The notes under the pieces are model-generated. The model saw nothing but the letters and a program-made list of their open reading frames with translations. It was not told where the DNA came from and did no database searches. Positions 13,881-34,896 of a stretch of DNA of 64,000 nucleotides are shown here, one piece after another. Source of the stretch: Megalonaias nervosa (lineage: Eukaryota; Mollusca; Bivalvia; Unionida; Unionidae); contig JAECUM010011096.1 in assembly GCA_016617855.1 (NCBI GenBank), positions 62,001 to 126,000 of the forward strand. Direction: 5' to 3'. Numbering within the stretch: the stretch's first letter is position 1; each line of letters opens with the position of its first letter. The translations under genes were made by a program, and so were the position numbers.

Positions 13881-14311
13881 AGTAGTATATGGGGTTACCG
13901 TAGCGTCAATGGGAATTAGCATTACAGACCCCCCCTGGGCCAGTATAGCGTCAAGAAATAAAATCTCACCCTGGGCCTGTATAGCGTCAATGGAAAATTA
14001 GGTAGAGGGACTAGCACACCCTGGGCCTGTATAGCGTCAATGGAAATTTTGTAGAGCGGTGACTAGTAGACTGTGGGTTTGTAGAGCGATAAGCGACAGG
14101 TGGCATGACGTCACACTGGTAACAATGTAGCAAAAAGAGAAGTACTGTGACGTCAGGCTACCTGAGAGAGGGTATAGACAAACACGAATCAAGAGCGTTC
14201 GTGTTTTTTAGTAGAGGAAGGGTTTTATATATATATATTCGTTTAGGGTGGAGACCAAATGAAAATTAAGATCTTTTCGAGGCATTGGAAGTGGCCCTGA
14301 AAAGGGCCGTT
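13881..14311 (+). repeat. Element B left terminal inverted repeat
   Basis: Pairs with 34517-34896. Shared landmarks in order are AGTAGTA, GGGAATTAGCATTACAGACC, several units containing GGG(C/A)C-GTATAGCG, a TGACGTCA pair flanking the word AACAATGTAGCAAAAAGAG, an ATTCGTTT-type AT box, and the histone-type stem-loop. Length difference comes from indels among the GTATAGCG units. Confidence 0.9.
14271..14308 (-). terminator. Histone-type 3' stem-loop and downstream element (left TIR)
   Basis: On the minus strand GGCCCTTTTCAGGGCC (14308-14293) forms a 6-bp stem with a TTTC loop. It is followed after about 12 bases by TCGAAAAGAT (14280-14271), a purine-rich element resembling the U7 snRNA target. 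It lies 33 bases after the stop of the minus-strand gene at 14341. Confidence 0.8.
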
Positions 14312-14340
14312 GTTTGTTATGTGATGTTAACACTATTCCG

Positions 14341-14595
14341 TTAACATACAGGACATCGCATAGGTCTTCTTTTCTTCCTCAAATTTCTCAAAGTTTGTCT
14401 TAAACTGTGTCTCACTTCTGGTCCGTAGATGAGAGTCCGCTTAAGACAGCCTTGTCTTTCCACATAACATCTTCTTTTCCAAAGAGTGGCACCGGTGATC
14501 CGGATGACAGTCCATTTTGTTTTCACATACATGGGTAAGTCTGTACGGAACAGCATTGAGGATACCAAAGTAGAGGATTCTACGTCGATCAACAT
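14341..14595 (-). CDS. Small accessory protein next to left TIR
   Basis: This 84-residue protein (MLIDVESSTLVSS start) has a basic C-terminal half (RKKRRPMRCPVC) with a terminal CPVC. No family is recognised. A TATAAATA box lies 47 bases upstream (minus strand) and a histone-type 3' stem-loop follows. Position and signals mirror the accessory gene at the right end (33918-34502). It may be a regulatory early-type gene; that is inference. Confidence 0.5.
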   Translation of the reverse strand: MLIDVESSTLVSSMLFRTDLPMYVKTKWTVIRITGATLWKRRCYVERQGCLKRTLIYGPEVRHSLRQTLRNLRKKRRPMRCPVC

Positions 14596-14641
14596 CTTCT
14601 TTGTGACGAGAACAGGTGAAGGGAATGAAGTGAACCGCGTT

Positions 14642-14649
14642 TATTTATA
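14642..14649 (-). promoter_or_regulatory. TATA box for 14341-14595
   Basis: Minus strand TATAAATA, 47 bases before the ATG. Confidence 0.6.
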
Positions 14650-14772
14650 GTGGAAGACCGGATCGAAACGGATTGAAAGGGTTCACCAATCCCAACACGC
14701 GTTACAAAATTCAGTCACTTCGCGGAGTCTGTCTTCCAATCCGAAGAGAGCTACCTGTGACGTCACATTTCC

Positions 14773-14780
14773 TATATAGG
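14773..14780 (+). promoter_or_regulatory. TATA-like box for 14831 gene
   Basis: TATATAGG 58 bases upstream of the ATG. Confidence 0.5.
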
Positions 14781-14830
14781 CACACTAGCGTCTGTGCGCA
14801 GTGAATCGATGCGGTATTGTTTTGTGAAAC

Positions 14831-15464
14831 ATGACCGAACCTAAGAAGACAATGAATTGGGGTGCACCGGCTGTGGAGACGAGAAGTAATGGTACAGCAG
14901 CAGCTACCAAAGTGAACACAGTGCTACTTCCCGAAGAGGTTGATTTCAACTTAGATTTAGTAGATTTTTTATCTTCTTCCGAAGAATTTGTTCCGGTACC
15001 AGTACCTTCGCCACTTTCTCCTTCTTTACCACGTGTCGACGATTTTAAACAAAGACAGAAAGAAGAATTGGAGAAATTTTTACAGCAGCAGAAAGAAGCA
15101 GAGCAAGCATTTCTCCTTGAACAGCAACAGCGAAGAAGAAGAGGCAAGAAGGAAACGACAGGAAGAAGAAGCAGTAGAGAAGAAACAAAGTCTAGGAGAG
15201 AAGGAGAACAGCGAAAGTCAAACGGTCACGGTACTCTTGGACATTTTGGCCGAGTTAAGAAGTCTGAAACAAATGTATCAGACTTCTTTATTACGACCCA
15301 AGAGAAAAAGACCTTCCCGAGCCAAACAACCTAACCCTGTGACTACACCAGAGATACCACCCCTAGTGATATCTACTAGATCATTGACAGGAGCAAGTCC
15401 ACAAGTAGGCCTTGGCCGTGGCAAAGGCTTAAGACAGTTAAAGCGAATTGATTCTCGTTCCTGA
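14831..15464 (+). pseudogene. Accessory coiled-coil protein, one frameshift
   Basis: The first frame (from MTEPKKTMNWG) gives an acidic N-terminal region with a DFNLDLVDFLSSSEE stretch, then a Gln/Glu coiled coil (EELEKFLQQQKEAEQAF). Near 15130 the coiled coil continues better in the frame that runs to 15464 (EEEEARRKRQEEEAVEKKQ, then TVTVLLDILAELRSLKQM and a basic tail). A single indel in the GAA-rich stretch is the likely break. No family is recognised. A histone-type stem-loop starts 33 bases after the stop. Confidence 0.5.
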
Positions 15465-15496
15465 GTTTGTTCTAAGGAAAAAAACAAACACTCAAC

Positions 15497-15535
15497 AGTC
15501 CTTTTCAGGGCTACCCAATACTCTCGAAAAGAGTG
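15497..15535 (+). terminator. Histone-type 3' stem-loop and downstream element
   Basis: AGTCCTTTTCAGGGCT (15497-15512; one T-G wobble pair) is followed by ACCCA, the canonical histone flank, and then CTCTCGAAAAGAG at 15521-15533. Confidence 0.85.
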
Positions 15536-15775
15536 ACTATTCATTTTGCCAAAATCAATTAAAACTCAAAATCCCTTCTTTAACCCTATGATGTACGTGT
15601 TGTGAGTGTATGAGTGTAGGTCCTTATTATTTCTAAATAATGAAAACCAAGAGACACTTACGTTTTTTTCAGTTTGGTCTATTCTGTTACAAATTTTTTA
15701 CAATTCAATATCACAACATAACACAACACAACACTTTTAAAAAAGTTCATAGATTTCTTCTTTCTCTTTTTTCTT

Positions 15776-16231
15776 TCACTCTCTCTGTTTTTTCAATTTC
15801 TTCACTTTTACACTTTTTTCCTCTTCTTCGTCTTCTTCTTCCTCACATTTTTCTCGTCTTCTTTTCTTTTCTGTCTTCTCTTTCTGAACGTGTCGGGGTT
15901 CTTCTTTTGCCGAGGTCACCTCTGTTTTTTCTTCTTCTTCCTCCTCCTTCTCCTGCTCCTGTTGTTTCTTAGGGCACTCTGAAGACCAATGTCCTTTCTC
16001 TTGACAATGATAACAGGTATCTTGACTTTTGTTTCTTTTGACACTGGCCTTGCTTCTTTGACGGTCTGGACATTCTGTAGCCCAATGCCCTTTCTTTTGA
16101 CAGATATAGCAAGTATCTTGACTTTTATCTCGAAAGGAAGGAGAGTAGTCCGTCGGCTTGTCTGAAGAAAACTTTCTTATCACACCTCGCAATGCTCTAA
16201 TCAGAAGTTCGATCTGTGTGGGTTCTTCCAT
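15776..16231 (-). CDS. CCHC double zinc-knuckle protein
   Basis: This 151-residue protein has two perfect CX2CX4HX4C knuckles, CYICQKKGHWATEC (residues 41-54) and CYHCQEKGHWSSEC (73-86). They are followed by an acidic Glu-rich stretch and a basic KKxRRREK / KVKKLKKQRE C-terminus. Such knuckles bind single-stranded nucleic acid in retroviral nucleocapsids and cellular CNBP. The gene is divergent from the polymerase gene across a 134-bp intergenic region. CCHC genes are not part of the usual Polinton core. A replication-associated ssDNA/RNA-binding role is inferred. Confidence 0.75.
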   Translation of the reverse strand: MEEPTQIELLIRALRGVIRKFSSDKPTDYSPSFRDKSQDTCYICQKKGHWATECPDRQRSKASVKRNKSQDTCYHCQEKGHWSSECPKKQQEQEKEEEEEEKTEVTSAKEEPRHVQKEKTEKKRRREKCEEEEDEEEEKSVKVKKLKKQRE

Positions 16232-16283
16232 TGTGCTGGTCGGCTTGAGAGCGAAATGAATACTGAGAGGGGAGTCACTAGCC

Positions 16284-16317
16284 CTTTATATATGCCCTGG
16301 TCTGACATAGATATATA
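16284..16317. promoter_or_regulatory. Bidirectional promoter region with two TATA boxes
   Basis: The minus-strand gene has TATATAAAG at about 16284-16293 (53 bases before its ATG). The plus-strand polymerase has ATATATAG at 16311-16318 (about 50 bases before its ATG). Confidence 0.6.
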
Positions 16318-16365
16318 GGGGTTCATGGTGTTTCACAGGTAGTCATTTGACTTTTTGCCGTCAAG

Positions 16366-19300
16366 ATGAAACGATCGCATCATTTCGAAAAGAAAGAAGA
16401 AGAAGAAAGTAAGAGGCAGAAACGTGATTTATCGCCTCGCACAGTAGCTGAAGTCTTAGCACAAATTCATGCCAGCGATTTTGAAGATGAGATGAGTGAA
16501 CCAGAATCGAAGCCTAAAGAGTCTACACCAAATCAAAGTCCATTACCATCCGTAAACCCTGAAAAGTACTACCATATTCGGGAGACGGACAAACGCTCTT
16601 CCAGAAAATTTAGAACCACGGCCTACACGTACGCAGTGAAGTTTAAAGATTTCAAGTCTGACGTACCCTTGGAAAAAACAGAAGGGTTCATCACCGATGT
16701 GTGGGATTCTTTGTTAACCACACTAAAACGGCAATGTCAAGCCAAAGAAGACGATCGCTTGAGACTTTCTATTCATCACGACAATTTGAAGTCTCCCGTT
16801 TGGATCGAGTTTAGCAGTCCAACAGAATTGACACCTTCCAAAATCATGGACAAGATTCAACACGTACAACAATCCAACGACAAATTTCACATCACGGACG
16901 GAAATGCGACACTGTACATGACCCACGTGTCTCTTCCCCAAGGGACAGGTAAAAAAAAGTTGATGTTGGTAGACAACTTGCGTAACCTCAAGCGTAGTCT
17001 CGTCCAAATTAACAATCCAAAAGACAAGATGTGTTTAGCCCGTGCCATCGTGGTGGGACAAGCGTATGCCAACAAGAACGATACGGTAGAATGGAAAAGA
17101 GCCTGGAAAACTATTCAACAATCGGACCGAGCCAAACAACGAAAAGAAGCAGAACTCCTGTTACAGCAAGCGGGGTTAGCTAAAGACACACCCTGTGGCA
17201 TTCCTGAAATGCAAAAGTTGCAAGACGTCTTGGCTCCACGTTACACCTTGAAAGTTCACCCTCAAGAAGTGCGCGGACCTCTGTTGTTTCGAGGTCAAGA
17301 TTTTAAAGACGGAAAATACATTCACGTCTATCATCACGATGAACATTTTGATGCCATTACCAGTATCACTGCATTCCTGTCATACAGTTATTACTGTAAG
17401 AAATGTGACTATGGCTATAACAATCGAGAGCAACACAAGCATTGTGGATCGAAATGCTCAGGATGTTTAGCTTCTACACCCTGTCTGGACGAAGGACAAG
17501 AACGAGTGCATTGCTCTGTTTGTCAGCGCACGTTTGTCAGTCCTGCCTGTTACCAGCAACACCTAAAGACGCAAGGTTCACAGCAGAAATGTGCTTGTCA
17601 GCTCTTGAGATTGTGCCCTACTTGTGGACAAGGCATACGTACCAACAATGCCAAGGCGCACGTCTGTTCAGGAAAGAAGCGATGTCACATTTGTCGCCAA
17701 ACCGTGGACTTGGAACACCAATGCTACATTCAAAAATACCATTCCAAACATGAAGAAGAAGAAGAGAATGACCAGAAGAAGAAAGGGAATTTCATCTTTT
17801 TCGATTTCGAATGCATGCAAGAGACTGGCATTCACATTCCTAATTTCTGCGTGGCTCACCGAGCGTGCGAGAAGTGCATCCAAGAGCCTATCTTGACTCA
17901 TTGCCCTTACTGCAGCAAGATTCCTGGAGGACGTGAAAAAATCTTTCGGGGATCGAACACACTGTCCGATTTTGCCCAATGGATCTTAAACCCTATCGAC
18001 GAGACGTGGAGCCAAGAAGATATCGAACGTTACGGAGATTGTCATCGCCATGCCACGGTGATGGCTCACAATTTCTCGGGATACGATGGACGATTTCTGT
18101 TGAGATACTATACGGAACAAAGTACCGAACGTCCGAAAGTCACTTTGAACGGAGTCAAAATCATTTCCATGCAAGTGGGACAAGTACAGTTTAAAGATTC
18201 AATGAGTTACTTGGCTGTGCCTTTGAGTCGCATGCCTAAAACGTTTGGCATGACAGAAATGGCCAAAGGCTATTTTCCGCACTTTTTCAATACTGAAGCC
18301 AATCAACACGCCGTTCTACCCCATTTGCCTGAGGTTCACTACTACGACCCCGACAACATGCGTACCGAACAACGAGAAGCTTTCTACGCATGGTACCAGA
18401 CTCACGCTTCGGACCCCTTCGACTTTCAGGAAGAAATGTTAAAATATTGTCGTTCCGACGTAGACATTTTACGTCGCTGCTGTGGAAAATTTCGAGAACT
18501 GTTCATGGAACACGGAGGGATCGATCCTTTGAAAGAAGCCTGTACCATTGCCAAAGCGTGTTCCTTAGTGTATCGTCAACGATTCATGCCCGAAAACACC
18601 CTAGCTGTCATCAGTCCTCAAACGACCACTTTTGTCAAACGTCAATACTCAGTCAAAGCCCTACGCTGGTTACACTACTTGTGTGAGAAGGAAGACAAAT
18701 GGATCCAACACGCTCGCAACGGAGGAGGCGAAATGACCATCGGAAGGTATTCAGTAGATGGCTGGGACTTAGAAAACCCCAAGATTGTGTACGAGTTTAA
18801 CGGGTGCTTATTTCACGGATGTCCCATATGTTACTCTCAACGTGACACTAAAAACCAGTTTTTACAACGGACCATGGAAGACTTGTACCAGACCACTTGT
18901 CAGCGACGCTTGAAGTTAGAAGAGCAAGGATACCAAGTAGTGGAAATGTGGGAACACGAGTACGATCAGCGATTAAAAACCGATCCCGAGTTTAAGCGCA
19001 TCGTGGAAAATTACAAGCTGGTGGACCCTCTGAACCCACGGGACAGTTTGTACGGAGGACGAACGAATGCCACCTGTTTGCTGTACCAAGTCGACGAAGA
19101 GAAAGGAGAAGAAATCAAATACTTGGACGTGTGTTCTCTGTATCCGTACGTGTGCGAATATTGCCACTTTCCCACAGGGCACTGCTGACCGAACACATCG
19201 ACGTAGACAATATTCGACAATACGAAGGATTGATCAAGTGCAAAGTCTTGCCTCCCACGAACTTGTACCATCCCGTTTTGCCAGATCATTGCCAAGGAAA

Positions 19301-20450
19301 ACTGATGTTTCCCTTGTGTCGTACTTGTGCTGAAACGTGCAACCAAGACCACCCTTGTCAGCACATTCAGAAGAACGCGCCTTGATGGGAACGTGGGTCA
19401 GCGTGGAATTGTTTAAAGCTCTGGACTTGGGATACCAACTGTTAGAAGTGTACGAAATTTACCACTTTCCCAAGACAGAAAAAATACCACAAGGGCGACG
19501 ATTCTCAAAAAGGCATTTTTGCAGACTACGTGAATGCTTTTTTGAAACTGAAACAAGAAGCTAGCGGATATCCTTCCTGGTGTCACACTCCCGAAGACCA
19601 AACAAAGTTCAAAGAGAAATACTGGGAGCAGGAAGGCATCACTTTAGACCACATGGAGAAAAACGAAGGAAGGCGATAGTTTGCCAAAGTGATGATAAAT
19701 TGTTTGTGGGGTAAAATGGCACAAAGACCGTGTTTACCCAAGACGGAGTATTTGACAGAACCTTTCCGCTACTTGCAGATGATTCACGACAAAACCAAAT
19801 ACATGAAACACGTGGACGTCGTTCGTGAGGACTTACTCTTAGTCAATTACGAAGAAGAACTGAACTTTGTAGAAGCCGACGAATTTGGAAATGTCATCAT
19901 TGCGGCTTACGTGACAGCCCATGCTCGCTTAAAACTGTGCGAAGCTTTAGAACTATTAGGAGATCGTGTACTGTATTTTAACACGGACAGTTGCATCTAC
20001 ATTGATCGCCTGGGTCAACCTTACCTGATCATCGAAGGAGATCGTTTAGGAGCCTGGATGGATGAGCATCCCGACGACAAGATTCTAAGTTTTGCAAGTG
20101 GCGGTCCCAAAAATTACGGCTACGAATACCGTAACCCACAAGCAGATGTGAACACGGAGTGTAAAGTGAAAGGATTGACTCTCAATTATCGCACCAGTCG
20201 AGTGGTGAACTTTAGCATATTGAAAGAAGCCTTGCAGTCTGGACAGGATCGAAACTTTAAAGTGACCACCAACGAACCGCACAAGATTGTACGTTTACCC
20301 ACACACCAAATCGTCAGTCGACCTTTGGAAAAAGTCTATCAAATCGTGTACCAGAAGCGAGTACGGCTTCCCAATCACTTCACTTTACCGTACGGACACG
20401 CTGATATAAAAAAATGGTTCCAAGACGATAGTCACCAACAAGAAGGATGA
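16366..20450 (+). pseudogene. Protein-primed family B DNA polymerase (pPolB)
   Basis: The first 940 codons are open: a basic N-terminal domain, a Cys-rich segment (CKKCDYGYNNREQHKHC onward), and the 3'-5' exonuclease motifs FFDFECMQETG (Exo I), MAHNFSGYDGRFLL (Exo II) and YCRSDVDILRR (Exo III). Motif A is YLDVCSLYPYV. Then come frameshifts near 19185, 19384 and 19490, plus TAG at 19677-19679. Motif B (FAKVMINCLWGKMAQ) and motif C (VLYFNTDSCIYI) follow. Motif C has Asn for the first Asp of DTDS. Damage is confined to about 500 bp. The enzyme would replicate the element from protein-bound ends. Its stop overlaps the next ATG (ATGA). Confidence 0.88.
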
Positions 20451-20926
20451 CTTCGACACAGCAAGAATCGAGTGAGAAACCCACAGAGAACTCCAAGTTC
20501 AAACCATGCCATTTTCCTGTTTTCTTGCCTGACTATTGCAGTTGTGCCAGTCGACTGGAAACGTTTCAAACATGGCCCACGGATAGGGAAGGATTACCTA
20601 CTGCGAATGTTTTAGCTAGAACAGGGTTTGTCTATTTGGGACCTGAAACTGGCTTGGGATACGAAGTACAGTGTTTCAGTTGTGGTCTGAAGTTGCGTAT
20701 GGATCGATGTATCTATAAAGATTCAGCTATTCTGGAACATACTCAATGGTCTCCGCATTGTCCTTACCTTTCTATGGCATTTTCACCCATCACATTACGG
20801 TTCAGGTATGACGGTACCTTAGAGAAGGTAGTACCGATGTCCAAGAAGAAAGAAAGGAAGACTTCCAAAACTGGTCATAAAAAAAGAACGATGTACAAAC
20901 TCGAGACTTCATTACGACTAGTATAA
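20447..20926 (+). CDS. BIR-domain (IAP-like) protein 1
   Basis: This 159-residue protein has one BIR domain, about residues 24-110, with SRLETF, C76-x2-C79, H98 and C105 as zinc ligands, and the ILEHTQWSPHCPYL signature. No RING or CARD is present. The C-terminus is basic (KKKERKTSKTGHKKR). BIR proteins of the IAP class block caspases or regulate signalling; the target here is unknown. The ATG overlaps the polymerase stop (ATGA), suggesting a shared transcript, and the stop codon lies inside the TATA box of the next gene. Confidence 0.85.
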   Translation: MTSTQQESSEKPTENSKFKPCHFPVFLPDYCSCASRLETFQTWPTDREGLPTANVLARTGFVYLGPETGLGYEVQCFSCGLKLRMDRCIYKDSAILEHTQWSPHCPYLSMAFSPITLRFRYDGTLEKVVPMSKKKERKTSKTGHKKRTMYKLETSLRLV

Positions 20927-20929: not shown

Positions 20930-20984
20930 GGGACAACGTTCAAGACCGATAGTTCATTGTGACTACAAACGCCAATCGAGAAAG

Positions 20985-21632
20985 ATGAATGCTTTCACAC
21001 AGCAAGTATCAAGCAAGAGCAAACTCGAGTACGATGCTGTGCCTTGCGATGGTAGGGATGCCGTACGCTATGACCTTAGTGATTCAGTACCACATCATCA
21101 TGGGAACTTTGCTATAACTACTACTACCATACCTACCATGGAAAGTGATGCTGTACGTGTCAAACCTGACGGATGTGAAAGCGATGCCACTCGTTATCGC
21201 ACACCTTTTCACTTTACTGGTTTTCATGGTGGATGTCCACCTCCACAGGAAACCATGCGACTACCACCCTACGGATGTCATGTAAAACTGAGCAAACTCC
21301 TAAGGATTTCACCGTACCCTCATCAAAATGAACCTGTGAAAGACGAATATTCGTTCCCTGTGCGTTTGCCAGAATACTGTGACTATGAAAGTCGATTGCA
21401 AACCTTCCAAGGAAAATGGCCAAAATATCTGGGAGGACCTACCCCCGAAGAATTAACTAGAGCTGGATTTATCTACTTGAGCGAAGGAGATAAAGACAAG
21501 TGCTTCAGTTGCGGTGTCTCACTTTACGAGTGGGAGAAGAAAGATTGCGCTTACCTGGAACATGCTCGATGGTCTCCGGAGTGTCACTACCTACGTTTAG
21601 TAGGTATTCTTTCCCTGTGCGTTTGCCGGTAG
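20985..21632 (+). CDS. BIR-domain (IAP-like) protein 2
   Basis: This 215-residue protein has a 115-residue N-terminal extension containing repeated DAVR/DATRY words (residues about 25-72), with no family recognised. A C-terminal BIR (about 120-205) has C173-x2-C176-x16-H193-x6-C200 and the YLEHARWSPECHYL signature. It is a paralogue of the preceding gene (shared FPVxLPxYC and SRLxTFQ). It has its own TATA box. Tandem BIR genes suggest control of host apoptosis, an inference from family knowledge. Confidence 0.85.
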   Translation: MNAFTQQVSSKSKLEYDAVPCDGRDAVRYDLSDSVPHHHGNFAITTTTIPTMESDAVRVKPDGCESDATRYRTPFHFTGFHGGCPPPQETMRLPPYGCHVKLSKLLRISPYPHQNEPVKDEYSFPVRLPEYCDYESRLQTFQGKWPKYLGGPTPEELTRAGFIYLSEGDKDKCFSCGVSLYEWEKKDCAYLEHARWSPECHYLRLVGILSLCVCR

Positions 21633-23027: not shown

Positions 23028-23080
23028 CTCTTGTCTTGTCTGTCTTCGTGTCACAAGTGACATTTTGTTACACTACTACT

Positions 23081-23809
23081 ATGGCTACCTCTACTGTCTC
23101 TGCTCCCTCTTCCTCCACTGTCAAAGTCATTGACGAACACGTAGATCGTGCTAGTTGGGAGGCCTTGTATCTTCGCCATCCCTTTAACATGCTCATTGCT
23201 GGACCTAGCGGTTCAGGCAAAACCGAATTTGTCAAACGTTTGATCGAACATAAACATCATTTGATCGATCGTCCTCCTCAACGTATCGTGTGGTGCTATA
23301 AAGAGTGGCAATCGGCGTACAGCCTTCTGCGAGAAAGTCAAGGCGATTCCATCGTCTTTGTGGAAGGCATTCCTGTCGAAGACGACGGAATCGTGTCTGA
23401 CCCTAGTCAAACTCATTTGGTTATTTTTGACGACATGTTAGGAGAAGACGAAGAAGAAATTAAACTCTGGTTTACGCGCAAAGGGCATCATCGTAATGCC
23501 AGTGTCATTTACATTACCCAAAATTTGTTTCAACAAAGTAAAGCCCATCGTACCATCAGTCTCAATGCTCATTACTTGGTGTTGTTTAAAAGCCCTAGAG
23601 ATAAATCGCAAGTACAAGTCTTAGCCAAACAGTTAGGAACGCCTTGGCTGATTCATGCGTACGACGATGCCACTCAAACCCCACACGCTTATTTACTCGT
23701 GGATTTAAAACCCACTACTCCCGATTATTTGCGATTTCGTACCCATCTGTTTCACCCCTGGTGCCAAGACGGAGGACCTATCGTGTACACGTCCTCGTCG
23801 TCGACTTAA
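23081..23809 (+). CDS. FtsK/HerA-type (A32-like) genome-packaging ATPase
   Basis: This intact 242-residue protein starts at MATSTVSAPSSST. Walker A is GPSGSGKT (residues 41-48). Walker B is HLVIFDDML (about 112-120). The sensor-like segment is SVIYITQNLFQQ. The family pumps the genome into the preformed capsid. The TATA box lies 61 bases upstream and another TATA follows 15 bases after the stop. The length is usual for Polinton ATPases. Confidence 0.92.
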   Translation: MATSTVSAPSSSTVKVIDEHVDRASWEALYLRHPFNMLIAGPSGSGKTEFVKRLIEHKHHLIDRPPQRIVWCYKEWQSAYSLLRESQGDSIVFVEGIPVEDDGIVSDPSQTHLVIFDDMLGEDEEEIKLWFTRKGHHRNASVIYITQNLFQQSKAHRTISLNAHYLVLFKSPRDKSQVQVLAKQLGTPWLIHAYDDATQTPHAYLLVDLKPTTPDYLRFRTHLFHPWCQDGGPIVYTSSSST

Positions 23810-26424: not shown

Positions 26425-27534
26425 ATGGAGAAGGTGTTAACCAGCATTTACTACGATCCTTCTCATCCTGCTGGTTACGGAGGAGTTCAGAAATTGTATC
26501 GTGCTGCCAAAACTCGACTGAAAAGTATCCGTTTACCTCATGTGCAACGCTGGTTACAAGAACAAGCCACGTACACCTTACACAAACCCATTCGACGAAA
26601 ATTTTCCAGAAGTCGCACCCAAGTGGAGGGTATCGATCACCAATGGCAAGCCGATTTAGCCGATGTCTCTCATTTAGCCACCTACAATCGTGGCTACAAA
26701 TATTTGTTTTGTGTCATCGACGTCTTTTCCAAATTTGCTTGGGTCGTACCATTGACTTCCAAATCGAGCAGTGAGTTAGTGCGAGCCCTCAAACTGGTGT
26801 TGAAACAAAGTGGTCGTCACCCTCTTCGATGGCAAACTGACAAAGGCACCGAATTTCTAAACCAAGCTTTCCAAAAAGAATTGAAGAAACGTGACATTCA
26901 TTTTTTCACCACCGAGAATCCCGAAACCAAAGCCAGCATCGTGGAACGTTTTCAACACACCTTGAAAGAACGCATGTGGAAATATTTTACGCATCAACAC
27001 ACTCTCAAGTACATTGACGTCTTGCCACACCTCGTTCAATCGTACAACCAATCTTACCATCGGAGCATTGGACGTGCCCCCCAAGAAGTGACTCCAGATA
27101 ACGAAGTGACCGTCTTCGAGCGCCTGTTTGGACCGTCCACGACAGTGCCTGTCCCCAAGAAAGGTGGAGTGTTGGCATCGGGAGATTGGTTACGCACTGG
27201 CAAAACCAAACGCACTTTCGACAAAGGTTACTTACCCAATTGGACCACTGAATTGTTTCGTGTCACTGAACGTGTGCGTGGTCGTTATCCTCCCGTCTAT
27301 AAATTAGAAGACATGAACGGGGAAGTGTTAAAAGGAACGTTTTACTTACCCGAGTTACAACGTGTGACCAAAAAAGAAGACGACGTGTACGAGATCGAAA
27401 GCATTCTCGATCGAAGAACTCGTAAAGTAGGAAAGAAACGTGTCAAAGAAGTCAAAGTACGTTGGAAAGGATATCCTCCCAGTTTTGACTCTTGGATCGA
27501 CGCTTCGCAACTCATCGACTATAAAAAGAAGTGA
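26425..27534 (+). CDS. Retroviral-type integrase with chromodomain
   Basis: This intact 369-residue protein has an N-terminal zinc-less helical part and the catalytic core with D77 (WQADLADVSHL), D139 (WQTDKGTEF) and E174 (SIVERFQHTL), a DDE triad with 34-residue spacing between the last two. There is an SH3-like DNA-binding part and a C-terminal chromodomain (about 315-366; VKVRWKGYPPSFDSWIDAS). It inserts the element into chromosomal DNA with 6-bp duplications, and the chromodomain may guide it to histone marks. All catalytic residues are present. Confidence 0.95.
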   Translation: MEKVLTSIYYDPSHPAGYGGVQKLYRAAKTRLKSIRLPHVQRWLQEQATYTLHKPIRRKFSRSRTQVEGIDHQWQADLADVSHLATYNRGYKYLFCVIDVFSKFAWVVPLTSKSSSELVRALKLVLKQSGRHPLRWQTDKGTEFLNQAFQKELKKRDIHFFTTENPETKASIVERFQHTLKERMWKYFTHQHTLKYIDVLPHLVQSYNQSYHRSIGRAPQEVTPDNEVTVFERLFGPSTTVPVPKKGGVLASGDWLRTGKTKRTFDKGYLPNWTTELFRVTERVRGRYPPVYKLEDMNGEVLKGTFYLPELQRVTKKEDDVYEIESILDRRTRKVGKKRVKEVKVRWKGYPPSFDSWIDASQLIDYKKK

Positions 27535-27539
27535 CCATC

Positions 27540-27941
27540 ATGCCCTTCAACACAGTCTCAGCTACTGCAGTGACCACTCCTTCCCCCAGTTCTTCTCTGC
27601 AAGATCTACAAAAACAACCCTTGTGGGTGTGGTGTGGAGAACGTGTGCCTAAAACTCAAATCGTCTTTTTCTGCCAAATCTTTGTGGTGTATTGTGTCAT
27701 CGGTGCTGCCATTGCCAATTTGAGTTTGCAACAAGGAGATAAACAATTGTGGACCATTTTACTCAGCAGTTGCATTGGTTACCTTCTTCCCAATCCGTCT
27801 CTGAAATATTCCTCTAACGGAAACAACAACAACGGGAGTCTTGTGTCCAACGTCAGTTCCAACAGTCACCCTAACCATCCTCTTTTAGACACTCCTCTAA
27901 CTTCCAGTGACTCCTCGGACATTAGAACTGTGGAATTATGA
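27540..27941 (+). CDS. Polinton two-span membrane protein
   Basis: This 133-residue protein starts at MPFNTVSATAVTT. KTQIVFFCQIFVVYCVIGAA is a clear membrane span. KQLWTILLSSCIGYLLPNPS is a second. A Ser/Asn-rich polar tail follows. This RVPKTQIVFF...LWTxLLSSCIGYxLPNP pattern is a recurrent Polinton family of unknown function. It lies 5 bases after the integrase stop, and its own stop overlaps the penton ATG (ATGA), indicating tight co-expression. Confidence 0.65.
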   Translation: MPFNTVSATAVTTPSPSSSLQDLQKQPLWVWCGERVPKTQIVFFCQIFVVYCVIGAAIANLSLQQGDKQLWTILLSSCIGYLLPNPSLKYSSNGNNNNGSLVSNVSSNSHPNHPLLDTPLTSSDSSDIRTVEL

Positions 27942-28858
27942 ACAACCAATTTTACTTAACGTTACCCAGTGACAGTTCCATGGAGGTGTTTCCCAATAAC
28001 ACTTTGTGCTGTTTCTCGGCCAAATTACCTCAGGCCATCCGATTGGATCACGAAGTCCATTGGGAAGTGGCTTTGGTGGAAATGATTCACCCTACACAAA
28101 TCAAAAACATCATCGAAAATCAAAACACTTTGACGATAGAAGTTTGTGACGAACAAGTGCAACAAGCCATGGATGAACGCGCTAGTGGTAGTGGTGTAGC
28201 TGACTTTATCAAAACACCAAACCCCATAACTAAACGAACCACTTATCTGTTGAAAGTTCCTGCAGGTTATTATTTTAGTGGTCAACATTTGGTGAACACC
28301 ATAGCTGAGAGGTTCAATTTCATGTTTAGTAAAGCCTTGGAGAAAGCCAGAAAAAGTGTCACGATCGAGTACCACAAAATATCTCGTCGCCTACTGATGA
28401 AATTTTCTGAGGAAAAAGTATTGGCCATTACATTTTGTCCTGAATTGTATGACATTTTGGGTGGAGACCCTAAGTTAATCAAGATTGCAAACGAAATACC
28501 AGCTGTGACCAGTAACTTGGATTTTGCGAAATATTTTCGATTCCCTGTAGAAATGAACCAAGGACTGAATTTGATTTTTGTGTACTCCGATGTGGTGGAG
28601 TACAACGTAGTGGGACACACCTCCGTACCGTTACTGCGTGTCATTCCTTTCAAAGTGGATTCTGCCACGAAGGCTGACGAGGAAGGTGGAAACACCTATC
28701 ACGTTCACCGCGAATTTGTAAATCCTCACTATTTGTCCGTCAGTAAGCCGTATTTCGACACTGTCAACATTACTATAAAAGGAGATCTGGGACAAAATAT
28801 TCCATTCACCAAAGGGAAAGTCACAGTGAAACTCCATTTTCGAAAACGATTACTCTAA
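27938..28858 (+). CDS. Minor capsid (penton-like) protein
   Basis: This intact 306-residue protein begins MNNQFYLTLPSDSSMEVFP and continues with WEVALVEMIHPTQIKN. The C-terminal half holds LIFVYSDVVEYNVVGHTSVP, PHYLSVSKPYFDTVNI and NIPFTKGKVTVKLHFRKR. This is the Polinton penton/minor capsid family, expected to form vertex capsomers with a jelly-roll fold. It is overlapped by the preceding gene at ATGA and followed by the next ATG after 13 bases. It is more distant from the pentons of A and C. Confidence 0.85.
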   Translation: MNNQFYLTLPSDSSMEVFPNNTLCCFSAKLPQAIRLDHEVHWEVALVEMIHPTQIKNIIENQNTLTIEVCDEQVQQAMDERASGSGVADFIKTPNPITKRTTYLLKVPAGYYFSGQHLVNTIAERFNFMFSKALEKARKSVTIEYHKISRRLLMKFSEEKVLAITFCPELYDILGGDPKLIKIANEIPAVTSNLDFAKYFRFPVEMNQGLNLIFVYSDVVEYNVVGHTSVPLLRVIPFKVDSATKADEEGGNTYHVHREFVNPHYLSVSKPYFDTVNITIKGDLGQNIPFTKGKVTVKLHFRKRLL

Positions 28859-28871
28859 CTTTTTGTCAGTC

Positions 28872-29312
28872 ATGTATCCTGTGTACCAAGGAGTTGCTCG
28901 ACAGCGAGGACATGGTTTAGGTGATATGCTCAAATCGGCCTTTCGTAGAGTGGTTCCCATTTTGAAACCGATGGTGACACGGGGATTGCACGCCTTAAAA
29001 GATGCCGCGTTGACGCAAGGTAAAGAATTTCTCCAAAATGTCATCATTGACAAACAAAACCCCAAAGAAGCTTTCTTGAGAGCAGGCAAAAATGTCTTGC
29101 TTCAAACGGGCAAAGACCTTTTGGGTCGGCGAGAAACTCCTATAAATGCCCTGGGCAATGCTGAGTTAGGCATTCCTGCTTCCCTGACGCCACAGCAAGG
29201 ACAAGGCAGAAAAAGACGACGAAAATACCCCTTCAGAGGACTTCACGCCCCTAGAGCTAGAAAGACAAAGAAAAGAAAAACCGTCCGAGAGTTAGACGTT
29301 TTTGATTATTAA
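28872..29312 (+). CDS. Polinton minor virion protein (basic C-terminus)
   Basis: This 146-residue protein starts at MYPVYQGVARQRGHGLGDML. Amphipathic helices (SAFRRVVPILKPMVTRGLHA) are followed by a basic tail with GQGRKRRRKYPFRGLH and RKTKKRKTVRE. This MYPVY...GHGLG family is widespread in Polintons, next to penton and MCP. A pVI-like internal or membrane-active role is possible but unproven. The gap to the MCP ATG is 10 bases. Confidence 0.7.
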   Translation: MYPVYQGVARQRGHGLGDMLKSAFRRVVPILKPMVTRGLHALKDAALTQGKEFLQNVIIDKQNPKEAFLRAGKNVLLQTGKDLLGRRETPINALGNAELGIPASLTPQQGQGRKRRRKYPFRGLHAPRARKTKKRKTVRELDVFDY

Positions 29313-29322
29313 AAAAAGGAAA

Positions 29323-30640
29323 ATGATGCACCGAGAGTCTTGTGCTTGTTCCAAGTCGGAACTGGATCTGTTTGCCATGCCACCCACCATGATGACGATG
29401 CAAGAATCCCAATGGGTCGAATTTCATCCCGTCTCCTCTTTGGTGGATTCCGCTCCCATCGAGTTTGAAATCAAAGGACAGCCCGAAGATTACATCGATC
29501 TGAATAATAGTTACTTGTATCTAAAGCTGAAAGTGATCAAAACCGACAACACCAATCCGGGAGCCGATGCCGCAGTAGCTCCCGTCAACAATTTCATGCA
29601 TTCCTTGTTCAGCGAAGTGGATTTGTACTTGAATAACAAACTGATCAGCAGTAGCACGGATACTTACCCTTACCGAGCGTACCTAGAAAATCTCTTGACG
29701 TACGGAAAAGAGGCCAAGAACACTCATCTGGATGCTTGCGTGGTATGGAAACCTGACACCGCAGGTGAGAACACGTTTAACAACAGAGCCCTGACAGCCG
29801 ATGACGATCCTCACAATGTGGGTTTTAACGATCGTCGAAGGAAAATCCTGCAAGGTCGTAGTTTAGAACTGATGGATCGTTTGCATTTGGACATGTGGTT
29901 GCAAGAGAAGTATTTGCTGAACGGAGTAGATATTCGCCTGAGACTCAATCGCAGCAGTGTCGCTTTCCATTTGATGGCTCAAGCCAACGAGTACAAAACC
30001 ATCATCCAAGAAGCCAGACTTTACGTGTGACGTGTAGAAGTGTTACCTAAAGCGGGAAACGACATCAGTCAAACATGGAGCAGATCGACCGCCAAATATC
30101 CGATACGACGTGTAGAAGTGAGAACATTCACCATTGCTGCTGGACTCCGATCCAAGATCGAAGATCATCTGTTCCAAGGACAGTTACCCAAACGTTTTAT
30201 CGTTGGTATCGTCAGTAATGCAGCCTTCAACGGAGCCCACGATCAAAATCCTTTCCAGTTTCAGCACTACAGTGTCCAAAATTGAAGTCAGTCGCGATGG
30301 CAAGACTTTGTGTACCAGACCCTTGGAACCTAACTTTGCCCAGAAGAATTACTTGAGATCGTACTTGTCCCTGTACGAAGCTACGGGGCAACTAGGAACC
30401 AACGCCAGTTACGGTATTTCGTACGAAGATTATGTCGGAGGTTACACTTTGTGGGCCTTTGATTTCACTCCAGACCAAGGCAGCGAAGAGGGACATTTCC
30501 ACCCTATAAAATCCGGTCAACTGCGTGTGGAACTTCAGTTTGCAGAAGCTCTCACTGAGACGGTCAACGTCATCCTGTATGCTGAATTCGATAATACCAT
30601 AGAAATCAACAGTTTGAGAGAAGTCATTCTAGACTATTAG
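29323..30640 (+). pseudogene. Major capsid protein (double jelly-roll)
   Basis: The start at MMHRESCACSKSELDLF leads into the Polinton MCP pattern WVEFHPVSSLVDSAPIEF, DYIDLNNSYLYLKLKV, FSEVDLYLNNKLISSSTDTY and YLLNGVDIRLRL. TGA at 30028-30030 interrupts the frame after EARLYV. The same frame continues with YPIRRVEVRTFTI and LFQGQLPKRFIVG. A frameshift near 30283 then leads to the final part (YGISYEDYVGGYTLWAFDFT) ending at 30640. It is otherwise full length, so inactivation is recent or reflects sequence error. Confidence 0.9.
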
Positions 30641-30684
30641 ACACAATAGAAGACCCCTCTTTAAACAGTGGAGAATCTTTGGAC

Positions 30685-31662
30685 ATGGAATGGGAGGATA
30701 GCGTGAAAACAGAACCCCAAGACCAAGTCAAAGAGGAAGAGGTAGTCGTCAAGTCCAGATGGCCAGAACAAGAACAACATTTAATGTCCTGTTTTGCTAA
30801 ACACCTGGCGAATACAATTACGGAATTGTCCAAGAAATATTGTTATGGATGTCAAAACGATCATCCCAGTCAAATTCAACACGATAAATGTATGATGATG
30901 AGTCAAGAAGAAAAATTGGATGAGTATCTGAACGAAGCTTGGAGTCTCATCTCGGAAGAAGCAGTATTACATGAGTGGTATAAATGCTTGCGTGATCACT
31001 CCTGCCCTCCATTGACTAATCTGGAAATCTATCGCATCGAAGCACTCTTAGCCCAGAGTGCGGAGACATGGCGAAGAAACGGCTACTTGACAGATTGTTT
31101 CAAACAAAAAGTCAGAATTGAACTGATGACTTATCATTACCTGTGGAAAAAAAAAAAAACACAACAGAAAATGGATACCTGGGAACTTTATTACCTTTTG
31201 AAGAATAGTTCGTATACTGCTTCTTGGAATCCTGTCGTGTGCGCTAAAGATGAACTACCTCATCGCAAACCTCAAGACCATCAAGCTTATGTCATCAACA
31301 CGGATGAAAGTCATCTTCCAGGAACTCACTGGGTTGCCGTCTACTTCCCTCAAGAGAATTGTGTGGAATATTTTGATTCGTATGGATTACCCCCTTTGGA
31401 AAACGATATCATTGACTTTATGAGAAGAAATGCCCAGACGACACGATACAATAATGTGAAATTACAAGGCACAGATTCCATGGTGTGTGGACAATATTGT
31501 GTATATTTTCTTCATCAACGCAGTCTTGGATATCCTTTCGAACATTTAGTGACTTATTTTGATCGCCACTCTTCTAGAAACGATGAGAAAGTAGATCGAT
31601 GGTTTTGTGACCATTATAGTTATCTTTTGTCTTTAGCTAGGAAACGTAGTGTACATCAATGA
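30685..31662 (+). CDS. Adenain-type cysteine protease
   Basis: This intact 325-residue protein has an N-terminal domain of about 180 residues, with YCYGCQNDHPSQIQHDKC forming a Cys/His metal site. The C-terminal peptidase domain has catalytic His in PGTHWVAVYF (about residue 215), Asp in VEYFDSYGLPP (about 231), oxyanion Gln in KLQGTDS (about 261) and catalytic Cys in MVCGQYCVYF (about 268). It matures capsid and core proteins. The ATG is chosen at MEWEDSV. The triad is complete. Confidence 0.93.
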   Translation: MEWEDSVKTEPQDQVKEEEVVVKSRWPEQEQHLMSCFAKHLANTITELSKKYCYGCQNDHPSQIQHDKCMMMSQEEKLDEYLNEAWSLISEEAVLHEWYKCLRDHSCPPLTNLEIYRIEALLAQSAETWRRNGYLTDCFKQKVRIELMTYHYLWKKKKTQQKMDTWELYYLLKNSSYTASWNPVVCAKDELPHRKPQDHQAYVINTDESHLPGTHWVAVYFPQENCVEYFDSYGLPPLENDIIDFMRRNAQTTRYNNVKLQGTDSMVCGQYCVYFLHQRSLGYPFEHLVTYFDRHSSRNDEKVDRWFCDHYSYLLSLARKRSVHQ

Positions 31663-31781
31663 CCTCATGACTTCCATCAATGGAAATCTCACATGATTTC
31701 ACAACGTTGTCAACCTTGTCAAAAATAATTTGTTTGATGTTACTTGTTACTCGTGACTTATGACTTGTTACTTGTTACTTG

Positions 31782-31787
31782 AATAAA
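31782..31787 (+). terminator. Poly(A) signal after protease
   Basis: AATAAA 120 bases after the stop, preceded by CTTGTTACTTG-type repeats and followed by TGT-rich sequence. Confidence 0.6.
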
Positions 31788-31920
31788 AAATGTTGTGTTT
31801 TGAAAAAAATGTGTCTGTCGTTTGTTTTGAAAAAAAAAAAACAATGTGAATATATGCTCTTTGACTTCTTTCTATCCCTCACCATGACATTCGCTATCAT
31901 AGCGTTCCGACACTAAAACC

Positions 31921-31964
31921 GTGTAGGGATGTTTTCTATCGCGTCCGCGTTTGAACCATATAAA
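31921..31964 (+). promoter_or_regulatory. Right-end promoter module, copy 1
   Basis: GTAGGGATGTTTT, then CGCGTCCGCGTTTG and TATAAA at 31959-31964, 52 bases before the ATG. Downstream leader CAGTCTGACC...GTTGACTCGTCAAC resembles copies 2 and 3. Confidence 0.65.
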
Positions 31965-32010
31965 GCGAGTGGGACTCCAGTCTGACCATTCACTGTTGAC
32001 TCGTCAACCT

Positions 32011-32382
32011 ATGAAGATGCCTTCCAGACTAGCCCAGCTGAACGAAGCTTACGTCAATTTACATCGTGTCAGGCTAAACCTGATACCGAAGCCTGAAGAA
32101 ATAGAGAATATTAGGATGCTCTCCATAACCCAAGACCTGATAGAAGAGATGTTTAGAGAGGAAATTAAAAAAGAACAAGAAGAATGGACTGAGAAATACA
32201 GGCTTCAGAAGAAGCAGAGAGAAGAACAACAACAACAGCAGCAGCAGCAGCAGCAAGAACCAGACAGAAGTTTTGTGGACTCTCGAGTAGACACCAAAGA
32301 ATTCTCTTTCTCTTTTCGCAGAAGCAGACCGTATCCAATAGGAAAGCCTACTGCCAGACGGGGACGCAATCTTCGACAGTAA
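32011..32382 (+). CDS. Right-end accessory protein with poly-Gln
   Basis: This 123-residue protein starts at MKMPSRLAQLNEAYVNLHRV, chosen for the TATA spacing. It is a charged coiled coil (EEMFREEIKKEQEEW), then a run of about ten Gln from a CAG/CAA tract, then an Arg-rich tail. The N-terminal helix resembles that of the 32798 gene (LELQMHLEYARRLLDEL), suggesting paralogy. No family is recognised. It is followed by a histone-type 3' stem-loop. Confidence 0.5.
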   Translation: MKMPSRLAQLNEAYVNLHRVRLNLIPKPEEIENIRMLSITQDLIEEMFREEIKKEQEEWTEKYRLQKKQREEQQQQQQQQQQEPDRSFVDSRVDTKEFSFSFRRSRPYPIGKPTARRGRNLRQ

Positions 32383-32428
32383 AAAAGATTGCCATTACTT
32401 CCGTGAACAAAACCCCCCCCAAAAAAAC

Positions 32429-32464
32429 AGCCCTTTTCAGGGCTACCCAATACTCTCGAAAAGA
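32429..32464 (+). terminator. Histone-type 3' stem-loop and downstream element
   Basis: AGCCCTTTTCAGGGCT (32429-32444), then ACCCA, then CTCTCGAAAAGA at 32453-32464. It lies 47 bases after the stop. Confidence 0.88.
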
Positions 32465-32699
32465 CATACTCATTCAATTTGCCAAAATTTGTAATTAGAA
32501 AATAGAAGTGTGCCTATAAGCACTTCGTTTCTTTTGTCCGTAAAACAAAATATTTGTGTGTTTGTATGTTTAAAAAAACCACCCTTTGTTTTCTCTGTCT
32601 TGTCCAAAATGTGCATGTCTGTGTTTGTAAGAAAAAAGTAAAAAAGTCAACGTGAGTGCTTCTTTTAAGTCCGCGCGTTACATGTGATGGTAAATTTGA

Positions 32700-32745
32700 G
32701 TGCTAGGGAATGTTTACCTTCACGTCCGTGCTTCAAGTATATAAA
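32700..32745 (+). promoter_or_regulatory. Right-end promoter module, copy 2
   Basis: GGGAATGTTTACCTTCACG, TCCGTGCTT and TATATAAA (32738-32745), followed by leader GTCTGGCTACCCACGTTGAC at 32760-32779, identical to copy 3. Confidence 0.75.
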
Positions 32746-32797
32746 TCGGTGCAATCGTCAGTCTGGCTACCCACGTTGACGTAGCAGCTGCAACAAA

Positions 32798-33341
32798 ATG
32801 AGCAGAATAACAAAACTACTAGAACTCCAGATGCACCTGGAATATGCCAGGCGGTTGCTAGATGAGCTGGCTGTGGAGGCTTTAGCCGAAGAAGCCAGGC
32901 TTGAAGAGGAAGAGAAGAAAAAGAAAGAAGAGGAGATGAGAGGGATCCTACCTCACCTCATGCTAAGACCTGTGTGAGGTCAAGCCTGAGGTGAGGACGC
33001 CTCCACAGGCAGTAGCAGCACCACAACAAAGACAGCCACAACCTCTGCCGCCAGTACCACCAGTACCAAGAGCCGCTGTCCCCCAGAGAGAAACCTGGGA
33101 GGAGGAGGCATGGGAGGAATTGGAAAGACAGAGGCAAGAGTGGGAGCCTCGGCGTCAGCATCATCATCCCAGGGTGTGGAATAGAAGAAGGGAACAAGTG
33201 TTCACTATCCCTCAAACTGAGGAGTGGGATAGTGAAGCCAATCAACCTCCCTCTGCGCTCCCAACCACACGCATCAATTGGGAGCAAGATTGGAGTCGTC
33301 GTTGTGTGTGTGGTGCCCGGCCTGGAAGATGTCAACATTAG
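32798..33341 (+). pseudogene. Right-end accessory protein, one frameshift
   Basis: The frame from MSRITKLLELQMHLEYARRL gives 59 residues of charged helix (EEEEKKKKEEEM), then TGA at 32975-32977. The overlapping frame from 32973 continues with a Pro/Gln region, ETWEEEAWEELERQRQEWE and a C-terminal RRCVCGARPGRC, ending at 33341. A single-base indel near 32970 would explain both; a spliced junction cannot be excluded. A histone-type stem-loop follows 32 bases after the stop. Confidence 0.5.
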
Positions 33342-33372
33342 CCGGGTGCATTTGAAGTTCAAGAAAAAAAAC

Positions 33373-33410
33373 AGCCCTTTTCAGGGCTAACCAGATCTCT
33401 AGAAAAGAGA
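33373..33410 (+). terminator. Histone-type 3' stem-loop and downstream element
   Basis: AGCCCTTTTCAGGGCT (33373-33388), flank AACCA, then CTCTAGAAAAGAGA at 33397-33410. Confidence 0.85.
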
Positions 33411-33476
33411 AACTATTCAATTTGCCAATTAGTGTGAATGTAGTGTAGTGTGACTATAAACACTCACTCTTTATTG

Positions 33477-33478
<2 letters not shown>

Positions 33479-33557
<79 letters not shown>
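33479..33557. repeat. (GT)n microsatellite
   Basis: About 39 uninterrupted GT units. Confidence 0.97.
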
Positions 33558-33560
<3 letters not shown>

Positions 33561-33805
33561 ATGCTCGTTCGTTGGTGTGGATAGTATATGGGTGTGTGTT
33601 TTTCTTCTCTTCCTGGTGAAGATAGTAAATTGTGTTTTATGCTTGTTCGTTCGTTGGTGAGGATAGTATATTGTGTGTTTTATGCTTGCTCGTTCGTTGG
33701 TGAGGATAGTATATTGTGTGTTTTATGCTTGCTCGTTCGTTGGTGAGGATAGTATATCATATGTGTTTTATGCTTGCTCGTTATTTGGTGTGGATAGTAT
33801 ATCCT
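33558..33805 (+). repeat. Minisatellite, about 46-bp unit
   Basis: Five or so copies of a unit containing GCTTGCTCGTTCGTTGGTG and GGATAGTATAT, ending just before promoter copy 3. Confidence 0.85.
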
Positions 33806-33825
33806 ATGTGAAGTAAGTGTAAGGA

Positions 33826-33860
33826 ATGTTTTCGTTCACGTCCGTGCTTGACGTATATAA
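33826..33860 (+). promoter_or_regulatory. Right-end promoter module, copy 3
   Basis: GGAATGTTTTCGTTCACG, TCCGTGCTT and TATATAA (33854-33860), then leader GTCTGGCTACCCACGTTGAC, 64 bases from TATA to ATG. Confidence 0.75.
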
Positions 33861-33917
33861 CGCGGAACGCTAGTCAGTCTGGCTACCCACGTTGACTAGT
33901 CAACAACTTCAAAAAAA

Positions 33918-34502
33918 ATGAATTTGTTTAATGAATTAAGGCATAGTTATTTCTGGATGATGGATGCAGCCTACGTGGTGGAAAGGCTTGAAAAAGAATG
34001 GAGCTGTCCAGTCTCGAAAGACTTTGTGACCAGTCAAGTCAATAGCATCAAGGTAGCCACTGATCTGGAGACCGAAATGATAGAAGAGGAAGTGAAAAAC
34101 TTAAGAGGATTCATAAAGCCTAAGGATCTAAGAGTGGGGACATTGAAGGAAGCCCTTGATCTTGTCATCAAAGTGAGGAGCTTCTTGCAAGATACATTTA
34201 ATTGCACAGAGAGGTCTTTTGTCAAGTGGGGCTTAGACCAGTTAAAGAAAGCCGAAGACAAGATGAAAAACGTGATGGAAGAAGAAGTAAAAAAGAATAA
34301 AGAGACTTGGACGAAAGAAAAAAAGGACAAAGAAAGCCAAAAAAAGAAAGAAGAGTTTGAGAAACTCAATCAGAACTGGGTGAAGGTACAGGAAAAGTTT
34401 AGAGCTCTCGGACATCCTGACTGGATGCCCGAAGAAGAAAAGAGAAAGAAGAAAGGAATTATTGGGAAAATCAGGACATGGTGGAAGAACTGGAGAAGAT
34501 AA
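33918..34502 (+). CDS. Right-end accessory coiled-coil protein
   Basis: This 194-residue protein (start MNLFNELRHSYFWMMDAAYV) has a helical N-terminal half and a very Lys/Glu-rich coiled coil (about residues 110-160). The C-terminal segment is basic and Trp-rich (GIIGKIRTWWKNWRR), amphipathic and possibly membrane- or nucleic-acid-binding. No family is recognised. Its transcript would end in the stem-loop located within the right TIR, 19 bases after the stop. Confidence 0.55.
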   Translation: MNLFNELRHSYFWMMDAAYVVERLEKEWSCPVSKDFVTSQVNSIKVATDLETEMIEEEVKNLRGFIKPKDLRVGTLKEALDLVIKVRSFLQDTFNCTERSFVKWGLDQLKKAEDKMKNVMEEEVKKNKETWTKEKKDKESQKKKEEFEKLNQNWVKVQEKFRALGHPDWMPEEEKRKKKGIIGKIRTWWKNWRR

Positions 34503-34516
34503 AAGAAGAAGAACCC

Positions 34517-34896
34517 AAAGGCCCTTTTCAGGGCCACTTCCAATGCCTCGAAAAGATCTTAATTTTCATTTTCATTTTGTCTCCAACCCAAACGAATATA
34601 TAAAACCCTTACTCTTTTTATACACGAATACTCTTGATTCGTGTTTGTCTATAGCCCTCTCTCAGGTAGCCTGACGTCACAGTACTCCTCTTTTTGCTAC
34701 ATTGTTACCAGTGTGACGTCATGCCATCTGTTCCATTCCTCTTGTCGCTATACAGACCCAGGGTATACTAGTCACTTTACACAATTTCCATTGTCGCTAT
34801 ACGGTCCCAGGCTGTGCTTTTTCTTGGGGCTATACGGTCCCAGGGGGGTCTGTAATGCTAATTCCCATTGTCGCTACGGTATCCCCTATTACTACT
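34517..34896 (-). repeat. Element B right terminal inverted repeat
   Basis: Inverted copy of 13881-14311 ending ...CCCCTATTACTACT at 34896. Confidence 0.9.
34521..34557 (+). terminator. Histone-type 3' stem-loop and downstream element (right TIR)
   Basis: GGCCCTTTTCAGGGCC (34521-34536), preceded by CCCAAA as in histone mRNAs, followed by ACTTCC and then CTCGAAAAGAT at 34548-34558. Confidence 0.88.

Follow-up and report, generated by a model that had tools for sequence, protein, structure and literature searches.

Element B is a transposable element that occupies positions 13881–34896 of a 64-kb stretch of the genome of the bivalve Megalonaias nervosa (contig JAECUM010011096.1, positions 62,001 to 126,000 of the forward strand; hereafter the window, numbered from its first base), and it reads as a Polinton. 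We found that the ends of its five small terminal genes, G1 to G5, carry the complete 3' signal of replication-dependent histone genes. The signal has the histone geometry, is conserved among copies of the element and is matched by the end of a host histone gene, and the hairpin-bearing ends mostly lack AATAAA. It is very probable, judging from the DNA sequence, that this Polinton family ends its five small terminal genes with the host's replication-dependent histone 3' signal, and that their transcripts are processed by stem-loop binding protein (SLBP) and the U7 small nuclear ribonucleoprotein (U7 snRNP) into non-polyadenylated mRNAs.

Histone-type hairpins and downstream elements in the window

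All five genes are followed by a 16-nt stem-loop with six pairs and a 4-nt U-rich loop. The hairpins after G1 (14293–14308, minus strand) and G5 (34520–34535, plus strand, preceded by CCAAA) share the sequence GGCCCTTTTCAGGGCC, that after G2 (15497–15512, plus strand) is AGTCCTTTTCAGGGCT followed by ACCCA, and those after G3 (32429–32444, plus strand, followed by ACCCA) and G4 (33373–33388, plus strand) are both AGCCCTTTTCAGGGCT. The core of the histone downstream element, GAAAAGA, starts 13–14 nt past each stem, at 14272–14278 on the minus strand for G1 and at 15526–15532, 32458–32464, 33402–33408 and 34550–34556 on the plus strand for G2 to G5. Read off the sequence, the hairpins lie about 17, 31, 32, 32 and 46 nt past their stop codons. 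The original prediction, made from the letters of the window, had listed five hairpins 19–47 bases past stop codons, each with a purine element behind it; all five are present, the last lying one base from its listed position, the measured spacing is close to that predicted, and the purine element was recovered at every site.

These sites are far from what chance would supply. Sequences within one mismatch of CCCTTTTCAGGG number five in the window against 0.24 expected, and hairpins with GAAAAGA in the set range number five against 0.00 expected (100 shuffles). A looser stem-loop scan of both strands returned exactly these five hairpins and no more. The Rfam Histone3 model (RF00032), run with an E-value threshold, matched these five sites of the window and no others, with scores of 33.3 (G5), 32.4 (G1), 31.9 (G3), 25.5 (G4) and 24.1 bits (G2) and E-values from 8e-6 to 0.023 (4227 families). 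It should be noted that the G1 and G5 hairpins sit at the inner edges of the element's terminal inverted repeats (TIRs), so that these two are not independent and represent one unit present at both ends.

The anatomy of the signal was then compared across 69 distinct ends, gathered by a filter that demanded an A right after the stem and a downstream purine run. The (G)AAAAGA motif starts 13–15 nt past the stem in 64 of them, and 47 have CCAAA or CCAAC as their 5' flank. The 3' flanks are ACTCA (22 ends), ACCCA (22), ACTTC (11) and others (14). For comparison, according to a passage of PMC6303110 histone pre-mRNA is cut mainly at ACCCA, 5 nt past the stem, and an excerpt of PMC7026596 gives AAAGAG as the purine core of the mouse H2a element.

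In an alignment of 35 ends, which omits two background pattern hits (L082:880-922 and L088:598-640), 96.7% of the 210 pair cells hold standard pairs, and eight cells are changed on both sides compared with 2.2 in shuffles. The outer pair is G-C in 26 ends, A-U in eight and unpaired in one. The G-C/A-U exchange on which the prediction had based an argument for selection on structure is thus confirmed, but this is the sole pair to vary in that way, and its variation tracks gene family and so stands for few independent events.

Host histone genes and copies of the element

To set the element ends beside those of the host, histone families of Pfam were searched for in the host genome, yielding 11 matches. 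One, L096, is an H2A gene that is intact and has a TATA box; its 3' end reads CCAAC-GGCCCTTTTCAGGGCC-ACCAA...GAAAAGATG. Its hairpin is identical at 16/16 positions to those of G1 and G5, at 14/16 to those of G3 and G4 and at 13/16 to that of G2, and its GAAAAGA starts 12 nt past the stem, one or two less than in the element ends. When the 3.2-kb H2A locus was compared with the window by blastn, the five best matches were the five element ends. The comparison with host histone genes that had been proposed as a check therefore came out in favour of the prediction. Two further loci, L093 and L098, are H2B-like, look like pseudogenes and have the same hairpin, with the last base changed in L098. 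No neighbouring histone gene was found beside the H2A gene in 2 kb on one side. As separate observations, several element ends have a further block of type ATTTTGCCAAA past GAAAAGA (15540–15555, 32480–32490 and 33420–33430), and the H2A end has TTTTGATTGCC, which is similar to that block.

Across the 2.19-Gb host assembly, Histone3 gave 75 scored matches from 423,121 first-look candidates, 66 of them passing the gathering score of 34 bits, and the best score, 44.1 bits, lies in element copies elsewhere in the genome. All 75 sites were examined, 20 as loci, 40 as short stretches and then 15 more, and similarity of proteins or flanks tied 71 to the element family (51/60, 5/9 and 15/15), the assignments resting on the best matches listed, at most four or three per locus; for L150 and L189 the link is a tandem array only. 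Four sites were linked neither to the element nor to host genes: L084 and L140 had no match, and the matches of L174 and L178 lay mostly in the hairpin region. The histone-type hairpin at L084 (1506–1521) is perfect, has an A in its loop and lies in surroundings that resemble neither the element nor histones. No H2A, H2B, H3 or H4 was among the matches listed for the first 60 sites. The genome list is incomplete, because the host H2A gene is absent from it, and is not a count of all histone ends.

Conservation of the ends was examined in copies chosen by means other than the hairpin, since loci L066–L085 had been found by the hairpin model, which biases hairpin conservation; the protein-anchored G3 sample and the G2 sample described below lessen this bias. 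Searched with the G3 protein, the genome yielded 150 scored matches of 90–100% identity from 12,263 first-look candidates, and the best 30 loci, the window included, were taken, so that the sample represents the youngest copies. A six-pair hairpin stands 33–53 nt past the stop codon in 29 of the 30, and all 29 have the purine downstream element. Among these 29 ends (the remaining copy, L201, is left out of the identity figures), the stem-loop has a mean pairwise identity of 0.996 and the flank, linker and downstream element one of 1.0, compared with 0.87 for the spacer and 0.94–0.97 farther downstream. At the G4 ends of the same 30 loci, the six-pair hairpin was found in 24, missed by the pattern or out of range in five and disrupted in one.

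Older copies are represented by eight G2 ends, namely the window and seven copies not picked by their own hairpin; L077 and L080, found via the G2 hairpin, and L075, a duplicate, were excluded. The contrast resembles that at the G3 ends: identity is 0.90 for ACCCA, 0.90 for the downstream element, 0.82 for the stem-loop and 0.81 for the 5' flank, compared with 0.67 for the linker, 0.70 for the spacer, 0.75 for the coding end and 0.79, 0.67 and 0.47 for successive downstream stretches. Conservation in these copies is thus more visible at the flank and the purine element than at the stem-loop. L074 and L075, on separate contigs, seem to be the same copy; some contigs may therefore be haplotype duplicates, and copy counts are inexact.

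The ends of the central genes are of another kind. An AATAAA lies at 31782–31787 (plus strand), past the last central gene and before G3, and the interval between this gene, a protease candidate, and G3 has AATAAA in 25 of the 27 copies in which it is readable. Between G3 and G4, AATAAA is present in 1 of 30 copies and absent from the other 29. This contrast agrees with the proposal that central genes use AATAAA or other ends, so that there seem to be two 3' end systems within the element.

Proposed processing by the host histone pathway and its alternatives

The likeness to Histone3, the dozens of copies with the same gene ends and the identity to the host H2A end support the histone pathway reading put forward in the original prediction. 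The host SLBP would bind the element hairpin, U7 snRNP would pair with GAAAAGA, and a cut made about 5 nt past the stem by the histone cleavage complex would give capped mRNAs without a poly(A) tail. The mRNAs of G1 to G5, perhaps early or regulatory genes, would be made and kept mainly in S phase, during host DNA replication, and mRNAs of the central genes, those for replication and the virion, would be polyadenylated in the ordinary way. For the five genes we infer SLBP binding, U7-type cleavage, lack of poly(A) and S-phase timing from the form and conservation of their ends. Timing to host replication is a natural idea for the purpose of such ends; escape from poly(A)-linked surveillance and simple compactness are others.

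A number of results speak against this reading. No site in the window reaches the Histone3 gathering score of 34 bits; the covariance-model check suggested with the prediction thus falls narrowly short there (best 33.3 bits) and is passed by most matches in the genome. In the 35-row alignment, pairs changed on both sides (1 vs 1.1 in shuffles) and pair types (5 vs 6.1) do not exceed shuffles. The G1 and G5 hairpins sit in terminal repeats and are homogenized together. Individual hairpins have decayed: the G3 end of L201 is without the second G of the stem, with the purine element still there, the G4 hairpin is altered in L090 and in L083/L092, and four of the eight older G2 ends (L072, L074, L078 and L082) have one broken pair. 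The G2 stem-loop identity is also only slightly above that of the +22 to +50 stretch and of the coding end.

On the host side, the H2A of L096, the only intact histone gene recovered, ends in SQEY and is H2A.X-like, and dual 3' ends are reported for H2A.X (PMC7807067). By scan, three of the 11 histone-family loci have a hairpin and eight, chiefly fragments that resemble H3 or H2B, have none. A genome search for host U7 (RF00066) found nothing among the 65 of 657,865 first-look candidates that were scored, and controls likewise gave nothing.

The explanation that competes best is that the hairpin binds SLBP and aids stability, export or translation, with cleavage and polyadenylation taking place farther downstream. 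Such a route might draw on the ATTAAA about 45 nt past the G2 hairpin, but in the G2 and G3 samples the purine element is conserved at least as strictly as the hairpin, which is expected only with U7-directed cleavage. Given also how rarely AATAAA is found between G3 and G4, we regard downstream polyadenylation as unlikely.

It is also conceivable that the ends came by copying, either from a histone gene of the host or from one element gene to another, and are passively inherited without function in the element. The high similarity of the G2, G3 and G4 ends to each other and to host H2A is what copying would produce, the G3 sample is young and nearly identical throughout, and half of the older G2 ends have a broken pair. 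Yet the block stands out from its immediate flanks in the young G3 sample and in the older G2 sample alike, and it lies directly past the stop codons of several unrelated genes. Moreover, AATAAA is found past the last central gene and hardly ever together with the hairpin, so that the hairpin genes would otherwise be without an evident 3' end signal. Passive inheritance is, on these grounds, quite improbable.

The idea of a generic palindrome, either a DNA-level site of the TIRs that serves replication or integration or else a simple terminator hairpin that has nothing to do with histone processing, has in its favour that two of the five hairpins mark the inner edges of the TIRs, and is highly improbable given that three are internal, that all are oriented with the genes and have strand-specific flanks and a downstream element needless for a palindrome, that they match Histone3 and the host H2A end, and that only 2 of the 35 stretches in IMG/VR with the hairpin and GAAAAGA pattern have six pairs, neither of them with G-C as the second pair. 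The bare hairpin pattern occurs in 65 IMG/VR stretches, and the longer G3 end in none.

Returning to processing by the histone machinery, a broader proposal may be made with moderate confidence from the same comparisons: a virus-derived DNA transposon lineage may have brought a group of its genes, which all have 3' ends in common and of which several also have the same promoter module, under the control of the host's histone pre-mRNA pathway, so that they would yield non-polyadenylated mRNAs only during host DNA replication. The ends may outnumber those of the host and compete for SLBP and U7.

Organization of element B and comparison with known systems

The TIRs of element B lie at 13881–14312, with the histone-type hairpin at the inner edge, and at 34516–34896, and pair in inverted orientation with 77% identity across 439 columns. 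Between them are a type B DNA polymerase (part; 16366–19188, plus strand; PF03175, E 1.1e-23), a Pox A32/FtsK-type packaging ATPase (23036–23809, plus strand; PF04665, E 9.5e-8, 32.2 bits against a cut-off of 22.8), a retrovirus-type integrase with a chromodomain (26425–27534, plus strand; PF00665, E 1.6e-13; PF00385, E 1.8e-9) and, as the last central gene, an adenovirus-type protease candidate (30685–31662, plus strand) with a weak match to PF00770 (E 0.015, 15.5 bits, under the cut-off of 21.3). Two adjoining genes with BIR domains, inhibitor-of-apoptosis-like, are found at 20447–20926 and 20985–21632 and are 48% alike across 90 residues. An open frame with CCHC zinc knuckles (15776–16231, minus strand) lies between G2 and the polymerase gene. 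A simple scan, which may miss overlapping motifs, found no LxCxE motif in the open frames of the element. Relatives of element B were not found in IMG/VR with DNA polymerase or integrase queries, and its integrase protein had no match among phage records.

Turning to the terminal genes, G1 (14341–14595, minus strand) encodes 84 aa and is conserved among copies, six genome copies being 65–82% identical to the window version; its predicted structure is too low in confidence to use (predicted local distance difference test, pLDDT, 50). G2 (14831–15464, plus strand) consists of two overlapping frames, one at 14831–15334 and a second ending at 15464, and in the copies L072, L074, L075 and L078 the similarity breaks or changes frame near residue 100. 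Possible causes of the double frame are an overlapping gene, a programmed shift and simple decay. G3 (32011–32382, plus strand) encodes 123 aa, and its copies were those collected by the protein search above. G4 (32798–33341, plus strand) is open only to 32977 and then seemingly continues in another frame to a stop at 33339–33341. G5 (33918–34502, plus strand) is an open frame for 194 aa rich in lysine and glutamate. No family exceeded the cut-off in Pfam for the frames of G1 to G5 (no histone family at E up to 0.5), in PHROGs for G1, G3 and G5, or in NCBIfam for G1, G2, G3 and G5.

G3, G4 and G5 share a promoter module of GGRATGTTT..C..TCRCGTCCG, TATA and CAGTCTG, found at 31926–32000, 32707–32780 and 33823–33896, respectively (all plus strand), and only upstream of these three genes in the window. 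With common promoter modules and common 3' ends, these genes seem to be regulated together from either end of their transcripts. The stretch from the G4 hairpin to the G5 promoter contains a (TG)n run and a 43-bp tandem array of six copies (33478–33802), and related arrays occur at loci L150, L187, L189 and L196.

Element B has mobile neighbours in the window. A hAT-type transposase with DUF659 and a hAT dimerization region (11058–12953, minus strand) adjoins it. A second element has 93% identical inverted repeats (44324–44648 and 60791–61104) around an integrase (54174–55127); the scan of the window gave zero Histone3 matches and no histone-type hairpin in it, so that at least one neighbouring Polinton-like element does without histone-type ends.

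Histone-type 3' ends and Polintons are each known, and their union was not met in the literature we consulted: within one open-licence collection, we found no report of such ends in Polintons or other DNA viruses. These data suggest that a many-copy, virus-like jumping element borrows the host's histone message machinery for non-histone genes. If true, this would reveal a way for a DNA element to tie the expression of its genes to S phase, and the dozens of variant stem-loops and downstream elements would offer a natural set for studying what SLBP and U7 accept. There are also practical consequences: a Histone3 match in an animal genome is not necessarily the sign of a histone gene, and transcripts of this kind would escape RNA-seq that selects for poly(A).

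The closest known system is the replication-dependent histone 3' end (RF00032, SLBP, U7 snRNP), with which the element ends share the 6-bp stem, the 4-nt loop, a 5' flank of CCAAA type, a 3' flank of ACCCA/ACTCA type and a purine element 13–15 nt past the stem. Like replication-dependent histone genes, the element genes are short, have TATA-like boxes and mostly lack AATAAA. They differ in that G1 to G5 match no histone family and belong to a mobile element, where the signal is known from sequence, and the G3, G4 and window G2 hairpins have an A-U closing pair, unlike the usual histone 3' end. In giant viruses, a hairpin of arbitrary sequence marks the 3' ends of genes whose mRNA is polyadenylated; element B likewise has hairpins at the 3' ends of virus-type genes, and their letters are those of the host histone signal. 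With Polintons/Mavericks and adintoviruses, element B shares the type B DNA polymerase, the retroviral-type chromodomain integrase, the A32/FtsK-type ATPase, the protease candidate and the TIRs, and it is set apart from the known Polintons/Mavericks by its five terminal genes with histone-type 3' ends.

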